Origin: Firmicutes bacterium ADurb.Bin146
Lineage (GTDB): Bacteria > Bacillota > Clostridia > DUPQ01
Direction: 5' to 3'
DNA: 64,000 nucleotides
Assembly (NCBI GenBank): GCA_002070475.1
Contig: MWDI01000028.1
Location: forward strand, 1-64,000
Shown here: in pieces, positions 25,445 to 37,620 of the stretch
How positions within the stretch are numbered: position 1 is the first letter of the stretch
Layout of the letters: every line of letters begins with the position of its first letter
Program-made: the position numbers and the translations under genes
Notes under the pieces: generated by a model
Told to the model about the DNA's origin: nothing
Database searches by the model: none
The model's input: only the letters and a program-made list of their open reading frames with translations

Positions 25445-26494
25445 TTACAAGTAATTTAGTATTCGTTCTGTAATCTCATTTGTCGTCAAATCACCGCCGA
25501 TATCTTTTGTAAGATATCGATTATTAAGTGTTTTTTCCACCGCAAAATCAATTTTTTCCGCTACATCATCGAGTTTGAATGAATACGATAACATCATGGA
25601 TACTGAAAGAATTGTAGCTATAGGATTAGCTAGATTCTTACCAGCGATATCTGGAGCAGAACCATGAATAGGTTCATATAATCCTCTTTTTGCAATACCT
25701 AATGAAGCAGATGGAAGCATACCTATAGAGCCTGTAAGCTGTGATGCTTCATCTGATAATATATCGCCAAACATATTTGAAGCAACAATCACATCAAACT
25801 GTTTAGGGTTTCTTATAAGCTGCATAGCAGCATTATCTACAAGCATATCGTTGTATTCAACCAACGGAAACTGCATAGATAGGTTATGCATTACCTCCCT
25901 CCATAGCCTAGAACTTTCTAAAACATTGGCTTTATCTATACTGGTAACCTTTCTTCTTCTTTTCATAGCATATTCAAACGCAACTCGCCCTATTCTCTCT
26001 ATTTCCATCTCATTATATGTTTCTGTATCGAAAGCTTCTATACCATATTCTGTCTGATTTCTTCCCCTCTTCCCGAAATATATACCTCCGGTCAGTTCAC
26101 GAACAATCACAATATCAATTTTATCTGCATCTTTTAAAAGACATCTATCTTTTAGCGCTTCGTACATTCTGACCGGGCGTATATTAGCAAAAAGCTCTAA
26201 TTCTTTTCTCAGACCAAGTAATGCTCTCTCAGGTCTTAGGTGTCCTGGCAAATTATCCCACTTGGGCCCCCCTACAGCTCCTAAAAGAATGCTGTCACAT
26301 TCAAGAGCGTTTTTTACAGTGTCATCAGGAAGGGGTACCCCATATTTATCTATTGCAACACCTCCTGCACATAAATCCTCATATTCTGCAAAATAACCGC
26401 TGTTATATAAAGCTTTATTCAAAACATTCACAGCACATTCCACTATCTCAGGACCAATACCATCACCTTTTACTAAACCTATCTTAAGTTTCAT
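25445..26494 (-). CDS. leuB: 3-isopropylmalate dehydrogenase
   Basis: 349 aa, full length. It oxidises and decarboxylates (2R,3S)-3-isopropylmalate with NAD+ in leucine synthesis, and can do the same for 3-methylmalate in the citramalate route. Motifs: GDGIGPEIV near the N-terminus, the substrate-site arginines around LRPERALLGLRKELELFANIRP, ASNMFGDILSDEASQLTGS (metal-binding Asp pair) and EPIHGSAPDIAGKNLANPIA. It is the last gene of the ilv-leu operon. No terminator is seen before the convergent gene that ends at 25437. Confidence 0.97.
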   Translation of the reverse strand: MKLKIGLVKGDGIGPEIVECAVNVLNKALYNSGYFAEYEDLCAGGVAIDKYGVPLPDDTVKNALECDSILLGAVGGPKWDNLPGHLRPERALLGLRKELELFANIRPVRMYEALKDRCLLKDADKIDIVIVRELTGGIYFGKRGRNQTEYGIEAFDTETYNEMEIERIGRVAFEYAMKRRRKVTSIDKANVLESSRLWREVMHNLSMQFPLVEYNDMLVDNAAMQLIRNPKQFDVIVASNMFGDILSDEASQLTGSIGMLPSASLGIAKRGLYEPIHGSAPDIAGKNLANPIATILSVSMMLSYSFKLDDVAEKIDFAVEKTLNNRYLTKDIGGDLTTNEITERILNYL

Positions 26495-26535
26495 ATCTAT
26501 CCTCTTTCTGAATACTATAAAATTTATTTTTTTTA

Positions 26536-27033
26536 TCAGTCACCAAGCATACCTTTGTTAACTGCTTCTATCAATCCGCCTGCTTCAATAATTTGTCTTA
26601 TAAAATCTGGAAATAGCTGTATTTTGTATTCTTTATCCTGTGTATGATTGTATATGACTCCTTTTTCAAAGTCAGCTTCCACATCATCTGCTTCTTTAAT
26701 ATCTTCTGCAGCCTCCGCACACTCAATAATCGGCAGTCCGATATTAATTGCATTCCGATAAAATATCCTAGCAAAATCTTTAGCAATAACCAGTGCAATG
26801 CCGCTTTCCTTTATTGCTATAGGAGCATGCTCTCTTGAAGATCCGCATCCGAAATTTTTACCTGCAACCATAATATCACCTTTTTTTACGCGGCTAGCGA
26901 ATGTCTTGTCGAGATCCTCCATGCAATGGGATGCTAGCTGTTGCCTATCTGTAGTGTTAAGATATCTAGCCGGTATTATTACATCTGTATCAACATTATT
27001 TCCATACTTAATAACTTTTCCTCTTGCTGACAT
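26536..27033 (-). CDS. leuD: 3-isopropylmalate dehydratase, small subunit
   Basis: 165 aa, the short archaeal/clostridial-type small subunit that completes the isomerase active site with LeuC. The swivelling-domain signature [18 protein letters not shown] is present, as are [11 protein letters not shown] near the N-terminus and NIGLPIIEC. It starts 2 nt after leuC's stop with a GAGGAG site, so translation is coupled. In the citramalate pathway the same complex isomerises citramalate. Confidence 0.97.
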
Positions 27034-27035
27034 TT

Positions 27036-28310
27036 CTATTCTCCTCTCATTAAATCATATGGATGAGCTATTTTGCCTGATATAGCACTTGCTGCTGCAA
27101 CCTGAGGACTTGCCAGATATACCTCAGATTCAGGATGTCCCATCCTGCCGACGAAGTTTCTGTTTGTTGTTGCTACTGCTTTTTCACCTTTTGCTAAAAT
27201 CCCCATGTGTCCTCCAAGACACGGTCCACATGTTGGAGTAGAAACTGCGCACCCTGCATTTATGAATATTTTCAAAAGACCTAATTCCATTGCTTCCAAA
27301 TATATCTTCTGGGTCGCAGGTATTATAATTGCTCTTACTCCTTTTGCAACTTTCCTGTCTTTCATTATATCCGCTGCTACAATCAAGTCTGACAACCTTC
27401 CATTAGTACAAGAGCCTATTACAACCTGATCAATCTTAATATCCGGCATATTATCAAATGTTCTTGCATTTTCCGGCAAATGAGGAAAAGCTACTGTAGA
27501 TTTAATAGCGCTTAAGTCTATTTCATAGTATTCATCATACTTTGCATGTTCATCCGCTTTATATATGACAGGCTTACCAGCACCGGCTTTTGCTAGATAT
27601 TCCATTGTAATAGCATCAACTTCAAATATGCCATTTTTTGCACCTGCCTCAATAGCCATATTTGCCATACAGAGCCTATCATCAATAGTAAGGTTTTTTA
27701 GTCCAGGGCCTTTGAATTCCATTGATTTATACAAAGCTCCTGATACGCCTATCATTCCGATTATATGAAGTATGACATCCTTGCCTGAGACATACTCATT
27801 AAGCTTGCCTGTAAGGTTGAAGCTTATAGCAGAAGGCACTTTGAACCATGCTTTTCCTGAAGCCATAGCGCATGCCATATCTGTTGAACCCACTCCTGTG
27901 GAAAATGCTCCTAATGCTCCATACGTGCATGTGTGAGAATCTGCTCCGATAATGACATCACCTGATGTAACAAGTCCTTTTTCGGGAAGCAGTGCATGCT
28001 CGACTCCCATATCTCCAGTGTCATAAAAATTACTTATCTGGTTTTCTTCTGCAAAAGTCCTGCACAATTTACATTGCTGTGCAGCCTGAATATCTTTATT
28101 TGGTGCAAAATGATCCATTACAAGAGCAATTTTCTCCTTATCAAAAACATTTTTACTCTTTATTTTTCTAAACTCATTTATTGCTACCGGTGCAGTAATA
28201 TCATTACCTAAAACCATATCTACTTTAGAAAGTATAAGCTGGCTTGGGTACACATATTCCAACCCTGCATGTACCGCTAGAATTTTCTGCGTCATTGTCA
28301 TTGCTTTCAT
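27036..28310 (-). CDS. leuC: 3-isopropylmalate dehydratase, large subunit
   Basis: 424 aa aconitase-family subunit that binds a [4Fe-4S] cluster through the cysteines in VIGSCTNGR and [29 protein letters not shown] is the other active-site segment. It isomerises 2-isopropylmalate to 3-isopropylmalate with LeuD. An AGGCGGA site precedes the first ATG at 28310. The length matches the short clostridial/archaeal class rather than the roughly 466-aa enteric class. Confidence 0.97.
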
Positions 28311-28323
28311 TTATCCGCCTCCA

Positions 28324-29892
28324 CTATTCATTCATCGCAAGCTTATATTCAATGGAATCTACTAAAGCTATAAGGCTTGCTTCTATTATATCGTTTGATA
28401 CCCCAATTGTTGACCAGCTTCGTTTTTCGTCTGCTGTCTCTATAAGGACCCTGACCTTTGCTGCAGTAGTACTATTCTCTTCAAGAACACGGACTTTGTA
28501 ATCTGTAAGTTGTATATCCTTTATAGCCGGATAAAATACTGTAAGAGATTTTCTTAATGCAAGGTCCAGTGCATTGACAGGTCCATTTCCCATAACTGCA
28601 GTTATCTCTTCTTTTCCTTCAACTTCAACTTTTATAGTTGCTGAAGCAGGCATCCCGCCTACAGGAACAGGAAACTCACCCATAGTCTTATATAGCACAA
28701 GATTAAAATGTGGCTTATAAATCCCCATAATCCTCTTTACCAGCAGTTCAAACGATGCATCTGCCGCTTCGAAATGATACCCGTAATGCTCCATTTCCTT
28801 CAGTTTTTCCAGTATAAGAGCTACTTCTTTTGAGTCTTTTGTCAAATTAGGAACTATCGAAGAAACTTTAGCTATAAGCGTGCTTCTGCCGGCAACCTCG
28901 CTCATTAAAAATTTCCTTTTATTTCCTACAGATTCAGGATCGATATGCTCAAAACTGCTGTGAACCTTAAGTACTCCGTCAATATGCATACCGCCTTTGT
29001 GTGCAAATGCGGATTTGCCTACATAGGGTTTGTTATTGTCTATCTGAGTATTGGATATATCTGCAATTCTTCTGGTTACTGAATACAACTGCGTAATATC
29101 ACCGTTACAGTCATAACCCATCTTTAGTTTGAGATTCGGTAAAATAATTGAAAGATCAGCATTCCCACATCTTTCTCCTATTCCAATAAAAGTGCCTTGT
29201 ACCTGTACAGCGCCTGCATCTACAGAAATCATGCTGTTAGCAACAGCACATCCAGAATCGTTATGACAGTGTATTGCAACTTTTGCTTCTGAAAATGATG
29301 ACACAACTGTTTTTGTCAGTGCTTCAACCTCATTAGGCATGCTGCCACCATTTGTATCGCACAAAGTCAGCACATCCGCTCCACCTTTAATTGCATGCTT
29401 CAAAACATTCATCGCATATGAAGCGTCTGACTTATAACCGTCGAAAAAATGTTCTGCATCAAAAATAACATATTTACCTAAGGATTTCAGATAAGATATA
29501 GTCTTTTCAACAATTATTAAATTTTCCTCTAAAGTTATATTTAATACCTTCTTTACATGCAAATCCCATGTTTTCCCAAATATCACAAGAGTATCTACTC
29601 CTGAATCAACAAGTGCTTTTACATTCCTGTCATCTTTTGGATGAACTCCATTTCTGCATGTGCTTCCGAATGCACATAATTTTGAGTGTTTTAAATCCAG
29701 CATTGTGGCTTTTTGAAAGAATTCCATATCTTTCGGATTAGATCCTGGATTTCCCGCTTCTATATAGTCTATTCCAAAAGAATCCAATGCCTTTACAATA
29801 TTTAATTTATCGCTTACAGAAAAAGATATGCCTTCTCCTTGAGCACCGTCCCTTAAAGTGGAATCTAAAATCTCTATTCTTCTTCTAGACAT
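28324..29892 (-). CDS. cimA: (R)-citramalate synthase
   Basis: 522 aa enzyme of the alpha-isopropylmalate synthase family. The N-terminal LDSTLRDGAQGEGISFSVSDKL pattern (shown in part: STLRDGAQGEGISFSV) and the C-terminal regulatory domain fit the Geobacter-type citramalate synthase, which condenses pyruvate and acetyl-CoA to start a threonine-independent isoleucine pathway. The metal-binding HCHNDSG is present. The start at 29892 is chosen because GGAGGA lies 7 nt before it. A second ATG at 29907 overlaps the leuA stop, but the Shine-Dalgarno lies after it. It differs clearly from the leuA product next to it. Confidence 0.92.
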   Translation of the reverse strand: MSRRRIEILDSTLRDGAQGEGISFSVSDKLNIVKALDSFGIDYIEAGNPGSNPKDMEFFQKATMLDLKHSKLCAFGSTCRNGVHPKDDRNVKALVDSGVDTLVIFGKTWDLHVKKVLNITLEENLIIVEKTISYLKSLGKYVIFDAEHFFDGYKSDASYAMNVLKHAIKGGADVLTLCDTNGGSMPNEVEALTKTVVSSFSEAKVAIHCHNDSGCAVANSMISVDAGAVQVQGTFIGIGERCGNADLSIILPNLKLKMGYDCNGDITQLYSVTRRIADISNTQIDNNKPYVGKSAFAHKGGMHIDGVLKVHSSFEHIDPESVGNKRKFLMSEVAGRSTLIAKVSSIVPNLTKDSKEVALILEKLKEMEHYGYHFEAADASFELLVKRIMGIYKPHFNLVLYKTMGEFPVPVGGMPASATIKVEVEGKEEITAVMGNGPVNALDLALRKSLTVFYPAIKDIQLTDYKVRVLEENSTTAAKVRVLIETADEKRSWSTIGVSNDIIEASLIALVDSIEYKLAMNE

Positions 29893-29906
29893 AAAAAAGT
29901 CCTCCA

Positions 29907-31415
29907 TTATCTCGTCTCCAGTATTTTATTGATACCATTTATGTAAGCCATTATGCTTGATTCAATTATATTTGTTGATAAACCCCTGCCTGTAACAATA
30001 ACATCCTTAGATTGCAGTTTTACGGTTACTTCTCCTAATGCGTCATTTCCATCAGATACTGAATGTATCGAGTAATTTATCAGCTTCTCGCAAATATTTC
30101 CTGTAAGGTTATTTATTGCATTGTACGCAGCATTTATAGGGCCATCACCTAAAGATACTCCTTCGATAATGTTATTTTCTTTGGATAATTTAATTATGCA
30201 AGCAGAAGTTGAGTTTTTTGCCGTATGGATATCGAAATGTTCTAATTTATATGTCCCTACAAATCTTTCCTTATTATTTATTATTGCCTCAAGGTCACTG
30301 TCAGTAATGTTTTTCTTTTTATCTGAAAGCTCCTTGACCTTGTCATAGTAATGAGCAAGCTCATCTGCATTGAAATCATATCCCATATTCATAAGTCTGT
30401 CCGCAATTGCATGTTTACCCGAGTGCCTACCAATAACAAGCTTGTTCTCCATTATTCCAAGATCCTCTGCTTTCATTATTTCATATGTTTCCCTTGCAGA
30501 AAGAACGCCATGCTGATGTATCCCTGATTCATGAGCAAAGGCATTAGCTCCCACAATAGGTTTGTTTATTGGCGCAGTCTGACCTATTATGTTATACACT
30601 AATTTGCTTGTTCTGCTTATCTGTTTAGTATCTATATTAGTATATGCCCCAAACAAGGCTCTTCTAGTCCTTAAAGCCATAACTATTTCTTCAAGCGCAG
30701 CATTACCTGCTCTTTCGCCAAGGCCATTTATTGTACATTCAACCTGTAAAGCTCCTGCCTTCACGCCCGCTAGCGAATTTGCTACAGCCATGCCAAGATC
30801 ATTATGACAGTGCACTGATACTATTACATCCTCTATTCTGTCTACATTGTTAAACAGATATCTGATTGTTTCATTCATTTCCTCAGGTACCACATATCCA
30901 ACCGTATCAGGCACATTTATTACTGTTGCACCTGCTTTAATAGCTGTATTAAATGCTTTTACCAAGAATTCTTTTTCACTTCTCATTGCATCCTCTGCCG
31001 AAAATTCCACATCAGAACAATATTTTTTAGCATATCTGACTGCGTAATCTATATTCATAAGCACTTTATCTGGAGACATCTTCAGTTTATGTTCCATATG
31101 AATAGGCGAAGTCGCTAAAAAAGTATGTATTCTAGGACTTACAGCATCCTTTATTGAATACCATGCTGCATCAATATCTTTTTCAACCGCCCTGCAAAGT
31201 GCTGCGACTTGTGACTCCTTTATAGTCTTTGCAATTTTTTCCACAGCCGCAAAAGCTCCTTCAGAACTTATAGGGAATCCTGCCTCAATACAGTCGACTC
31301 CCATTAATTCGAGTTGTTTTGCAATTTCAATCTTTTCTTCTGTATTCATACTACACTGGGGAGCTTGCTCTCCATCACGCAGTGTTGTATCAAATATCCT
31401 TATATGTTTTTCCAT
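29907..31415 (-). CDS. leuA: 2-isopropylmalate synthase
   Basis: 502 aa. It condenses 2-oxoisovalerate with acetyl-CoA, the committed step to leucine. The DTTLRDGEQAPQCSM start, the VHCHNDLGMAVANSLAG metal site and a C-terminal LeuA regulatory domain (about 390-502), which normally carries leucine feedback inhibition, are all present. AGAGGA precedes the ATG. It lies 11 nt downstream of ilvD, within the operon. Confidence 0.97.
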   Translation of the reverse strand: MEKHIRIFDTTLRDGEQAPQCSMNTEEKIEIAKQLELMGVDCIEAGFPISSEGAFAAVEKIAKTIKESQVAALCRAVEKDIDAAWYSIKDAVSPRIHTFLATSPIHMEHKLKMSPDKVLMNIDYAVRYAKKYCSDVEFSAEDAMRSEKEFLVKAFNTAIKAGATVINVPDTVGYVVPEEMNETIRYLFNNVDRIEDVIVSVHCHNDLGMAVANSLAGVKAGALQVECTINGLGERAGNAALEEIVMALRTRRALFGAYTNIDTKQISRTSKLVYNIIGQTAPINKPIVGANAFAHESGIHQHGVLSARETYEIMKAEDLGIMENKLVIGRHSGKHAIADRLMNMGYDFNADELAHYYDKVKELSDKKKNITDSDLEAIINNKERFVGTYKLEHFDIHTAKNSTSACIIKLSKENNIIEGVSLGDGPINAAYNAINNLTGNICEKLINYSIHSVSDGNDALGEVTVKLQSKDVIVTGRGLSTNIIESSIMAYINGINKILETR

Positions 31416-31426
31416 AATATCCTCTC

Positions 31427-33094
31427 TTAACGGATTATTGCACCTTTATCTGCTGATGAGACGCTTTTTGCATATCTTGCGATATATCCTTTAAGATTAT
31501 CTTTTCTTTTTATTGTCATTGTTTTCTTTCTTTGTTCCATTACATCTGTTGCAACTTCCAGATCCAATCTATTATTTGGTATGTCGATTGATATATAGTC
31601 ACCATTTATCACATATGCTATAGGCCCTTTGCTCGCTGCTTCCTCTGAAACATGCCCTATAGCAGCACCTCTAGTAGCACCGGAAAAACGGCCATCGGTT
31701 ATAAGAGCGACATGCTTATCCAACCCCATACCTGCAATTGCTGAAGTAGGATTCAACATCTCCCTCATACCTGGCCCTCCCGCAGGACCTTCATACCTAA
31801 TAACAACCACATCACCTTTTTCAATCTTACCGCTGTATATCGCTTCACATGCATCTTCTTCACAATCATAAACCTTAGCAGGACCTCTGTGTTTCATCAT
31901 TTCCGAAGCTACTGCACTTCTTTTAACAACCGCACCGCACGGAGCCAAAGAACCGAAAAGTACTGCAATACCGCCTTTATCTGAATAGGGTTCATCTATT
32001 GGACGTATTACCTCAGCAGTGGTGATGTATGGGCGATATTCCATAAGATTCTCTTTCATTTTTTTAGTAGTGCATGTCATAACATCTGTATTTATAAGTC
32101 CTTTTTTATTCAACTCGGACATTATCTTATACACTCCCCCAGCAGCATCCAAATCCTGCATATGATAAGGTCCAGCAGGTACTAGCTTGCATAAATTTGG
32201 AGTCTTTTCACTTATTTTATTTACGATGCTTAAATCAAGACATACTTCAGCTTCATTTGCAATTGCCATAAGATGCAGAATCGAATTCGTCGAACATCCC
32301 AGTGCCATATCGACAGTCAGAGCATTTATGAAAGCTTTTTCAGTCATAATATCCCTTGGTCGGATATTTTTATGAAGAATATGCATTATCATCTCACCTG
32401 CTGTTTTTGCTAACACCAGCCGTTTTGAATATACAGCAGGTACAGTGCCATTACCAGCTAATGCCATACCTAATGCCTCACATAAACAGTTCATAGAGTT
32501 AGCAGTGAACATTCCCGAACATGAACCGCATGTCGGACAACAGCACTGTTCTATTCTAAGCAGTTCTTCTTCATTAATAGTTTTGTTCATATATGCTCCG
32601 ACAGCTTCAAATGCACTATTGAGATCCAGGTTTGTGCTACCATCATTAAAAGAAAGCATAGGTCCTCCTGAAATGAAGATGCTAGGTACATTTATCCTTG
32701 CCGCTGCCATAAGCATTGCAGGGACTATCTTGTCGCAATTAGGTATGAAAACTAGTGCATCAAAAGCATGTGCCATTGCCATACATTCAATGGAGTCTGC
32801 AATTACTTCACGTGATGACAGCGAATATTTCATACCAACATGTCCCATAGCAAGCCCATCACAGACTCCTATTACATTAAATTCCATAGGAGTACCCTGA
32901 GCTGATAAAACCCCATCCTTTACTGCCCTGGCAATATCTTTAAGATGAATATGACCTGGCACTACTTCGTTATATGAATTTACAATACCTATCAATGGTT
33001 TAGCAATTTGGCTGTCTGTATATCCCATTGCTTTTAGAAGAGATCTTTTTGGACTGGCTTCAGTTCCTTTTTTTATTTTATCGCTGTTCATCAT
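31427..33094 (-). CDS. ilvD: Dihydroxy-acid dehydratase
   Basis: 555 aa, the normal length. It dehydrates 2,3-dihydroxy-isovalerate and -methylvalerate to the 2-oxo acids. Iron-sulfur-binding cysteines are visible in IPNCDKIVP and [18 protein letters not shown], with [19 protein letters not shown] near the C-terminus. Two consecutive ATGs follow a GCAGGAAG site. Oxygen-sensitive Fe-S chemistry suits an anaerobe. Confidence 0.97.
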
Positions 33095-33106
33095 TTCTTC
33101 CTGCCT

Positions 33107-34623
<1,517 letters not shown>

Positions 34624-34643: not shown

Positions 34644-36305
34644 TTATCTTGTTATTATATTGTCTATTGATCCTCCTGGAGGTATCATAGGCAGTACTTT
34701 CTCATCTTTGCTTATTGAACAGTCTATCACCACAGGGCCTTGTGCTTTAAAAGCCTCATCTAGTGCCTCTTTTAGCATTTTTATATCCATAACCCTATAT
34801 CCTGTCGCACCAAAAGCTTCAGCTATTTTTACAAAATCAGTTTTTCTGTTAAGTGTTGTCTGTGAGTATCTTTGGTCATAAAATGTATTCTGCCACTGAC
34901 GTACCATGCCAAGTACTCCATTATTAAAAATTATTATGACTAAAGGCAGATTGTTTGTTACCGCTGTCGCCATCTCATTCAGATTCATACCAAAGGAACC
35001 ATCTCCAGTAAAAAGTACTGTTTTTTTACACCCAGATGCAAAACATCCTCCTATAGCAGCTCCCATTCCGAATCCCATTGTGCCTAATCCACCGGATGTA
35101 AGATATGTACGTGGTTTTTTGAATTTATAATACTGAGCTACCCACATCTGATGCTGGCCGACATCTGTCGCTACTACAGTATCTGCATTAGTGTATTCCA
35201 TTACTTTTTCAATAATATCCTTTGGATGCATTACTCCATCTTTTACAAAATGTATACCTTCTTGTATCCTCATTTGCTGTATCTTATCCATCCACTGGGT
35301 ATGAGTCTGTTTTTCCAGTTTAGCTAAAAGCAATGTAAGAACTGATTTAATATCCCCGATAAGACCAAAATATGCCGAGATGTTTTTATCTATCTCGGCA
35401 GGGTCAATGTCTATATGAATAACTTTTGCATTTTGAGTATATCTAGACTTATTGCCTGTAGCACGATCAGAAAAACGTACTCCTGCTGCAATTATGAGAT
35501 CGGCTTCAGAATTAGCTTTTGTAGACGCATATCTCCCATGCATACCTGTCATTCCAAGCCAATATGGATTATCAGCTGAAACTGCTGACAGTCCCATCAT
35601 AGAAAAACCAATAGGGGAATCTATTTTTTCAGCTAGTTTTGCTATTTCTTCACCGGCTTGTGATATAACAACTCCTCCTCCGCAGTAAATATACGGACGT
35701 TCTGCTTCTAAAATTAATCTAGCCACCTGTTCAATCTGCTTATCTGTAACAGAACACTGCCTGCTGTTTTTTTGAACTTTTTTGCTTTCAAACTCACATA
35801 CAGCAGTTTGTACATCTTTTGGGACATCAATTAGAACTGGTCCTGGTCTTCCTGATTGAGCAATCATAAATGCTTCCCTTATAACATCAGCAAGCTCATT
35901 TACATCCTTGACGATATAGTTATGCTTTGTTATCGGCATTGTTATTCCTGTAATATCCACTTCCTGAAAACTGTCTTTACCTAATAAAGGTAAAGCGACA
36001 TTTCCAGTTATCGCAATAAGAGGCGAAGAATCAAGATAAGCATTAGCAATACCGGTTACTAGATTTGTTGCTCCTGGACCGGAAGTTGCTATTACTACAC
36101 CTGCTTTTCCTGTAACTCTTGCATATGCATCAGCAGCATGAGCCGCACCTTGTTCATGAGCGCTTATTATATGTCTTATCCTGCTTGAATTCTTGTAAAG
36201 CTCATCGTAGATATTTAATACTGCTCCTCCGGGATATCCGAATACAGTATCACATCCTTGCTCTATAAGCGTTTCGATAATTACTTTAGTTCCTGTCGCT
36301 TTCAT
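34644..36305 (-). CDS. ilvB: Acetolactate synthase, large (catalytic) subunit
   Basis: 553 aa thiamine-diphosphate enzyme, first common step of branched-chain amino acid synthesis. The catalytic glutamate is Glu51 in SAHEQGAAHAADAYAR. The TPP/Mg2+-binding motif is GDGSFGMNLNEMATAVTNN. An FAD-binding middle domain is expected. AGGAGG lies 6 nt before the ATG. It is the first structural gene of the nine-gene operon, directly behind the attenuator-like terminator at 36322-36358. Confidence 0.97.
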   Translation of the reverse strand: MKATGTKVIIETLIEQGCDTVFGYPGGAVLNIYDELYKNSSRIRHIISAHEQGAAHAADAYARVTGKAGVVIATSGPGATNLVTGIANAYLDSSPLIAITGNVALPLLGKDSFQEVDITGITMPITKHNYIVKDVNELADVIREAFMIAQSGRPGPVLIDVPKDVQTAVCEFESKKVQKNSRQCSVTDKQIEQVARLILEAERPYIYCGGGVVISQAGEEIAKLAEKIDSPIGFSMMGLSAVSADNPYWLGMTGMHGRYASTKANSEADLIIAAGVRFSDRATGNKSRYTQNAKVIHIDIDPAEIDKNISAYFGLIGDIKSVLTLLLAKLEKQTHTQWMDKIQQMRIQEGIHFVKDGVMHPKDIIEKVMEYTNADTVVATDVGQHQMWVAQYYKFKKPRTYLTSGGLGTMGFGMGAAIGGCFASGCKKTVLFTGDGSFGMNLNEMATAVTNNLPLVIIIFNNGVLGMVRQWQNTFYDQRYSQTTLNRKTDFVKIAEAFGATGYRVMDIKMLKEALDEAFKAQGPVVIDCSISKDEKVLPMIPPGGSIDNIITR

Positions 36306-36321
36306 TACTACCTCCTGATTG

Positions 36322-36358
36322 TAAAAAAAATCCTACAGTTTTTTTATTCTGTAGGATT
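36322..36358 (-). terminator. Intrinsic terminator (attenuator) between the leader peptide and ilvB
   Basis: Read on the minus strand, AATCCTACAG (36358-36349) and CTGTAGGATT (36338-36329) form a perfect 10-bp stem followed by eight Ts. It lies 23 nt after the leader-peptide stop and ahead of ilvB. Its 5' arm CCTACAG can pair instead with CTGTAGG at 36428-36422 inside the leader reading frame, giving an alternative antiterminator. Confidence 0.9.
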
Positions 36359-36381
36359 GTCATTTTTGCTTTTATTTCCGG

Positions 36382-36525
36382 TTATGCGGTTTGTCTTATC
36401 CGATTAAGCTTATATGATCCACCTACAGTATTACGTATAATAAGTACTATGACGATGCCTAGCAGTGCTACGACTGTTAGTGCTAATACTAGGTTGTTAA
36501 TGATGATTACGGATAAATCCGACAT
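36382..36525 (-). CDS. Branched-chain amino acid leader peptide (47 aa), predicted attenuator peptide
   Basis: The ATG at 36525 follows AAGGAG by 6 nt. The peptide runs MSDLSVIIINNLVLALTVVA and then LLGIVIVLIIRNTVGG; within residues 4-34 (L4 to V34) about two thirds are Ile, Val or Leu. Several Leu codons are CTA, a codon often rare in low-GC genomes. It is placed like the enteric ilv and leu leader peptides: after a promoter, before an intrinsic terminator and the ilvB gene. The alternative reading is a small single-pass membrane protein, because the stretch is also hydrophobic enough for that. Terminator placement and the alternative pairing favour the attenuator role. Confidence 0.8.
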   Translation of the reverse strand: MSDLSVIIINNLVLALTVVALLGIVIVLIIRNTVGGSYKLNRIRQTA

Positions 36526-36553
36526 GCACAGCTCCTTGAATTTATTTTTACCA

Positions 36554-36582
36554 ACTTTACCATGCATAAATCTATATGTCAA
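36554..36582 (-). promoter_or_regulatory. Promoter of the ilv-leu operon
   Basis: On the minus strand TTGACA (36582-36577), a 17-nt spacer and TAAAGT (36559-36554). Transcription would start about 20 nt before the leader-peptide ATG at 36525, giving a short leader and no room for a T-box. Confidence 0.8.
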
Positions 36583-36809: not shown

Positions 36810-37442
36810 TTACACAGCTACTTTTATCATTGTTACTTTTTTAAATCCAGAAACAGGCATATCCACACTGTTGCCTGAAATAGCGGCATCTGCGGCCTCA
36901 TAGACAACGATAACCCTTGCTTCTCCGTCTGCCGGCAGATACACATGGATCTGCTTTATGGCGTCAATATCTTGAAAAATCCTGTTTTTCAAGTAAAGAT
37001 AGCTGCTACTGATACCATACGCGGACAGCATATATTCCTTAAGGGATTTTGGAAGCGAGAGGCGTATCAGATCTGTCCCCTGCTTATGCATGATCCCATT
37101 CTGCATATACGAGATACGGATGCCTGTCTTCTTGTATCTTGGCGGTTGCGGATTATCTATCCCTCCTTTCTTTTGAAGCATATAGACTGATTTCCATGAT
37201 TTGTCCAGAAGCTTGCAGATCTCCTGTGCTGTCTGTGAAGGCAGCGACTTATACCATATGTCATCTTTGTGTGCGGCTTTTTGATAATACCAGTCAGGAT
37301 ACTTGCAAAACCCCAGTTCCTTGTAGTTATGCCTCTCATAGTTGCAGACATTCCAGAGTTTGGATGCAGCATAGCACATATGGCCAATAATGTTCGACGA
37401 AGCATCATCAATTCTTAATGAGGTCTCATGTGACAACAGCAT
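36810..37442 (-). pseudogene. tnpB: tnpB (IS605 OrfB) remnant, RuvC region deleted
   Basis: The frame encodes about 210 aa from the ATG at 37442, which has GGAGG 7 nt upstream. Residues such as ASKLWNVCNYERHNYKELGF, WYKSLPSQTAQEICKLLDKSW and PPRYKK are the N-terminal helix-turn-helix and recognition region of IS605 TnpB. Typical TnpB is about 370-400 aa. The chain ends shortly after VVYE, just where the first RuvC strand (GIDLG) should begin, and continues with about 30 unrelated or C-terminal residues. The nuclease is therefore inactive. This looks like an in-frame internal deletion rather than a frameshift. Confidence 0.8.
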
Positions 37443-37620
37443 AAGTGTGCCTCCTGTTAGTATGATCACCTTCCCCAATGTCTCTGGTATGCCGTGTAGG
37501 TTCTTCTAGAAATGCCTCAATCTCAGCTGATAAAACCTTCCTTTGATACTTGGCAGGCCATACCACATGGCAGTTAATGTTGTAGACGCAGGTCCTTGTG
37601 TGAATAAGATTTTCTTTCAT
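37426..37620 (-). pseudogene. tnpA: tnpA (IS200/IS605 Y1 transposase) N-terminal fragment
   Basis: About 64 aa. The opening TRTCVYNINCHVVWPAKYQRKVLSAEIEAFLEE (shown in part: YNINCHVVWPAKYQRKVL) is the recognisable N-terminus of IS200/IS605 TnpA. The HUH histidine pair and the catalytic tyrosine are missing: after residue about 48 the sequence jumps to the tnpB upstream region. It cannot be active, so the element could move only if a related TnpA acts in trans. Confidence 0.8.

Follow-up and report, generated by a model that had tools for sequence, protein, structure and literature searches.

A probable leader-peptide attenuator upstream of the ilv-leu operon in a member of the Clostridia

The single ilv-leu operon of Firmicutes bacterium ADurb.Bin146 is very probably controlled by a classic ribosome-mediated transcription attenuator, a mechanism that we infer from the sequence and from folding models. 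Positions refer to the window, i.e., the whole 64,000-nucleotide stretch of contig MWDI01000028.1 that was analyzed, and the features of the leader region lie on its minus strand. Attenuation had been proposed in an earlier note on this DNA, and that reading is supported by the conservation of the region, by a terminator 5' arm shared with a competing hairpin, by the start of this antiterminator just after the control codons and by the lack of both a T-box and CodY. All parts of the system, their conservation in three genomes, the relative stabilities of the two hairpins and their geometry are shown here.

Layout and conservation of the leader region

The order of elements described in the earlier note proved exact at each of its minus-strand positions. 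A -35 element, TTGACA (36577..36582), is followed after a 17-nt spacer by the -10 element TAAAGT (36554..36559), which was also detected in a promoter scan and is extended by a TG one base upstream. The Shine-Dalgarno sequence AAGGAG (36532..36537) then precedes a leader gene of 47 codons plus TAA (36382..36525, with its ATG at 36525), a terminator and ilvB. Transcription would start about 22 nt before the leader gene. We compared the region with those of two same-genus relatives, G003 (IlvB 93% identical) and G002 (IlvB 80% identical), and found promoter, Shine-Dalgarno sequence, reading frame and terminator kept in both. The -35 element is identical in all three genomes, AAATTCAAGGAG at the Shine-Dalgarno position is kept in all three, and both relatives carry TACAGT at the -10 position.

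The intrinsic terminator (36329..36358) consists of a perfect 10-bp stem, as the note had claimed, with a 10-nt loop, and begins 23 nt past the leader stop codon. Its arms are AATCCTACAG (36358-36349) and CTGTAGGATT (36338-36329), its U-tract comprises eight T (36323..36330), and its stem is identical in G003 and G002. A standard promoter and terminator scan detected the promoter and missed this hairpin, because the loop limit of the scan is 8 nt.

The first structural gene is ilvB (34644..36305, minus strand; acetolactate synthase large subunit, NCBIfam TIGR00118), of which the genome shows no second copy at E<=1e-100. It is followed, in the order given by NCBIfam, by ilvN, ilvC, ilvD, leuA, cimA, leuC, leuD and leuB (25445..34623, also on the minus strand). 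The products of the operon are exactly Ile, Val and Leu, the amino acids specified by the control codons of the leader. Since the operon includes cimA, encoding citramalate synthase (28324-29907, minus strand), the cell could form isoleucine independently of threonine deaminase. Immediately upstream of the attenuator promoter lies a 222-aa fragment of a TnpB-type RNA-guided nuclease (36810-37478, minus strand; NF040570, E 1e-12, below the cut-off); it is absent from this place in G003, where an alanine-racemase-like gene abuts instead.

The control codons form a 27-residue run at leader residues 4-30. Over residues 4-34, where the note had put the share of Ile, Val and Leu at about two thirds, we counted 21 of 31 (68%), compared to a mean of 24% in the genes of the window. 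Such a frame is far beyond chance: its run scores 15.1, whereas none of 1,000 dinucleotide shuffles of these 300 bases scored above 6.5. Runs of at least 8 behind a Shine-Dalgarno sequence were found in 6 of 110 ilvB upstream regions and in none on the reverse strand, with 0.03 expected from shuffles. Rarity of the control codons was rejected as a feature, any shift toward rare codons being slight at most (p 0.07).

We then considered whether the product of the 47-aa frame functions as a small membrane protein and merely happens to lie before a terminator that is constitutive or otherwise regulated. Residues 4-30 would be hydrophobic enough for one membrane helix. However, the leaders of the two relatives differ from that of the window at few silent sites, with dS values of 0.16 (G003) and 0.38 (G002) versus 1.15 and 3.57 in ilvB (Fisher p 2e-7 and 6e-7), and their dN values of 0.08 and 0.35 compare with 0.05 and 0.13 in ilvB, the excess being significant for G002. 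The resulting dN/dS is about 0.5 and 0.9 in the leader versus 0.04 in ilvB, so that purifying selection stronger on amino acids than on silent sites, the mark of a small membrane protein, was not detected in the leader. Replacements among the same-genus genomes fall mostly inside the Ile/Val/Leu class, and G002 has lost six codons through an 18-nt in-frame deletion. No Pfam family matched the peptide (best match, DUF1072, E 0.74), and other lineages hold unrelated Ile/Val/Leu-rich peptides at the same place. Silent-site constraint and the in-frame loss of six codons led us to reject a stable peptide, and we regard the membrane protein as very unlikely. The earlier note had weighed a stable conserved membrane protein with no terminator next to it in relatives; instead, the peptide drifts and the terminator is kept in G003 and G002. 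With silent sites constrained and amino acids drifting, the leader appears to evolve as an RNA with a codon-class requirement rather than as a stable protein.

Antiterminator and proposed switch

The note had placed an antiterminator in the pairing of CTGTAGG (36428-36422) with CCTACAG (36355-36349). Both motifs are exact, and the pairing does share the 5' arm of the terminator. It is not a 7-bp helix alone, though, but the outer helix of a composite hairpin (36349..36428) supported by folding and by the consensus of three genomes. Its inner helices pair TCAT (36417-36414) with ATGA (36363-36360), GCT (36409-36407) with AGC (36370-36368) and TCGG (36403-36400) with CCGG (36381-36378). The best-conserved stretches of the second half of the region, GTAGGTGRATCATAYAAGC within the leader gene and AAAAGCAAAARTGACAATCCTACAG beyond its stop codon, form both strands of this one hairpin. 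In G002, a C.A mismatch in the outer helix is offset by a TTGTAT:ATACAA extension.

The comparison of folding energies that the note had suggested gave the antiterminator a lower energy than the terminator in each of the three genomes (-16.6, -18.9 and -19.6 versus -11.6, -12.6 and -11.6 kcal/mol, with the window first). The three-genome consensus fold of the antiterminator reached -13.4, versus -2.9 +/- 1.95 for column shuffles (z -5.4; 0 of 1,000). Sliding the partner strands by 1 to 3 columns lowered the paired cells from 92% to 23-33%. The inner helices by themselves were matched by 135 of 1,000 shuffles and are not significant. Covariation, also suggested in the note, is thin since only three genomes carry the homologous version: a single pair has both of its bases changed, and shuffling the 3' letters gives equally good scores. 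Against a null of synonymous codon swaps, the terminator arm showed no unusual pairing probability (p 0.16, 0.09 and 0.33).

We modeled the pairing of the antiterminator as a function of ribosome position and obtained 0.71 with the ribosome at codons 1-29, 0.48 at codon 31 and 0.03 at codon 33. The Ile/Val/Leu run ends at codon 30, and the modeled antiterminator is thus lost within three codons of its end. The leader stop codon (36384-36382) adjoins the 3' strand of an inner helix (36381-36378), which would put a terminating ribosome midway into the antiterminator. The full-length transcript still favors the terminator at equilibrium (0.79-0.96), indicating that the switch depends on co-transcriptional order.

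This geometry bears on whether the terminator merely sets a fixed low level of expression, with a leader that couples translation and senses no amino acid. A precedent comes from Streptomyces coelicolor, where changing the candidate control codons of comparable leaders before ilvB and leuA gave no classic response (PMC1262725). Yet such a model leaves 68% Ile/Val/Leu over 31 residues without purpose, and likewise the coincidence of the run end with the antiterminator; we consider it most improbable.

In the attenuation mechanism that we favor, leader translation, ribosome stalling and a change in read-through are the inferred steps. With ample charged tRNA-Ile, tRNA-Val and tRNA-Leu, the ribosome would clear the control codons, cover the 5' strand of the antiterminator and then reach the stop codon beside the inner helices. 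The terminator would then form, and transcription would end before ilvB. If any one of the three charged tRNAs were short, the ribosome would stall in codons 4-30, and the antiterminator could fold before the 3' arm of the terminator exists. By sequestering the 5' arm of the terminator, it would allow RNA polymerase to read into ilvB.

The terminator could alternatively be run by a tRNA- or metabolite-sensing riboswitch, either a degenerate T-box or a new class, with the frame being incidental. Many of the ilvB genes in the IlvB tree do have a T-box upstream, and the genome uses T-boxes elsewhere. At the leader region, however, neither the T-box sequence TGGNACCGCG nor a match to Rfam RF00230 was found. 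In agreement with the note, the Rfam search returned no T-box at the gathering score and none at E up to 10, and a T-box or other Rfam family was rejected as a candidate here. Moreover, the stretch from promoter to terminator is almost entirely coding frame, and the structure includes the 3' end of the frame, right after the control codons. A riboswitch is thus highly unlikely. CodY regulation of the operon was also rejected, as no PF06018 match was found in the genome (assembly 98% complete), whereas the B. subtilis and L. lactis controls were positive.

Genome-wide, we detected eight T-box matches, six of them above the gathering score. They precede ileS, alaS, valS, aspS, a methionyl-tRNA synthetase gene, a tryptophan transporter gene, pheS and thrS. 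The transporter, which follows the T-box at G000 C59:24192-24437 (L006), is a TrpX-like tryptophan ABC transporter. None of the eight precedes leuS, although ileS and valS each have one. With ileS and valS under T-boxes, ilv-leu under a leader peptide and no CodY, one cell would sense shortage of branched-chain amino acids (BCAA) in two ways.

Leaders upstream of other ilvB genes

The search of other Clostridia that the note had recommended was made on 230 ilvB upstream regions, chosen by similarity to this IlvB and thus not a random sample. A T-box motif was found in 28 of the 230, and about 17 have a credible leader with a terminator. About 14 further ilvB genes from Clostridia and Lentisphaerota, in the same IlvB clade or near relatives, therefore have a comparable leader, each followed by a terminator of its own. 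Besides the three genomes of this genus, credible leaders occur in Oligosphaera ethanolica (L039), another member of the Lentisphaerota (L046) and Oribacterium sinus (L049), as well as at L040, L041, L118, L121, L122, L127, L131, L209 and L221; L118 and L131 have the same peptide and identical IlvB. Two Ruminococcus leaders (L054 and L088) are weaker. The layout is the same but the sequences are unrelated, the terminators and antiterminators of other lineages differing from those of the window. For L209/L221 and for L054/L088, the consensus fold beat 500 of 500 shuffles; for the L118/L127/L122 group, it beat 481 of 500.

The Ile/Val/Leu-rich leaders and terminators of the two Lentisphaerota lie at about 2298-2500 (L039) and about 2259-2500 (L046), and the O. 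ethanolica leader starts with GTG. In the cultured anaerobe O. sinus, a 31-codon leader (about 2336-2478) carries near its end GCGTAACGC, which exactly complements GCGTTACGC in the terminator arm and loop and forms a 9-bp antiterminator candidate. Tested as a duplex with the arm and a portion of the loop, this pairing did not reach significance (p 0.58).

All 15 leader-bearing rows of the IlvB tree fall into one clade of 58 with a support of 99, and the distribution of leaders versus T-boxes requires at least three changes. The IlvB proteins of five relatives from the same family as the window (G004, G005, G007, G009 and G010) lie outside that clade. One tentative explanation, to which we give somewhat less than even weight, is that the attenuators of this leader-bearing clade, which Clostridia and Lentisphaerota share, moved by horizontal transfer of ilv operons, were repeatedly swapped with T-boxes and had their antiterminators rebuilt from new sequence in each lineage. 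Joint transfer of operon and attenuator is a natural reading, but old paralogues lost differentially would leave the same picture. Related ilvB genes are preceded by T-boxes in some lineages and by leader peptides in others, which makes the evolution of amino acid sensors testable.

Relation to known attenuators

Attenuation by ilv leader peptides is classic in enterobacteria. The kind of system is thus not new; what is new is the lineage, together with the alternation of leader peptides and T-boxes before related ilvB genes. This case adds to the Clostridia a BCAA leader-peptide attenuator with good support. In the literature searched, which included a minority of subscription papers, we found no paper on BCAA leaders in Clostridia or Lentisphaerota.

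The earlier note had stressed that Firmicutes usually use T-boxes. None is present here, but the surprise was overstated, since BCAA leaders are used by Listeria (PMC5864092) and Staphylococcus aureus (PMC5794164) and are predicted for Lactococcus and Streptococcus (PMC6123439), and His leader-peptide attenuators were predicted in 2022 for Eubacteriales such as Clostridioides (PMC9413887). The latter also represent classic attenuation in Clostridia, but of the histidine operon. Leader peptides in place of T-boxes in Firmicutes were noted in 2010 (PMC2965389).

The supported Firmicute precedents are Listeria monocytogenes Rli60 and the S. aureus ilv-leu leader. Rli60, backed experimentally by start-codon, Shine-Dalgarno and terminator mutants, likewise combines an ilv-leu operon, a promoter, a BCAA-rich leader gene and a terminator with a competing antiterminator. 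It differs in having a 13-aa leader before ilvD, plus CodY (PMC5864092), compared to a 47-aa leader before ilvB in a genome without CodY here. The experimentally supported S. aureus attenuator also has a BCAA leader peptide in place of the B. subtilis T-box, with a 26-aa Leu/Ile peptide before ilvD, plus CodY, and 52 nt from stop codon to terminator (PMC5794164) versus 23 nt here. Among Actinobacteria, Corynebacterium, Mycobacterium and Streptomyces share a BCAA-rich frame and a terminator before ilvB, but their leader frames are reported to overlap the terminator hairpins (PMC1262725, PMC10272879). The E. coli ilvGMEDA and ilvBN attenuators similarly have multivalent Ile/Val/Leu control codons, a leader peptide, a terminator and an antiterminator; the likeness is one of layout. 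Their peptides have 32 aa (PMC6123439), and ours is longer, with its 27-residue control run. Finally, the B. subtilis ilv-leu T-box controls the same operon, also by antitermination, but senses uncharged tRNA directly; the operon described here lacks a T-box.
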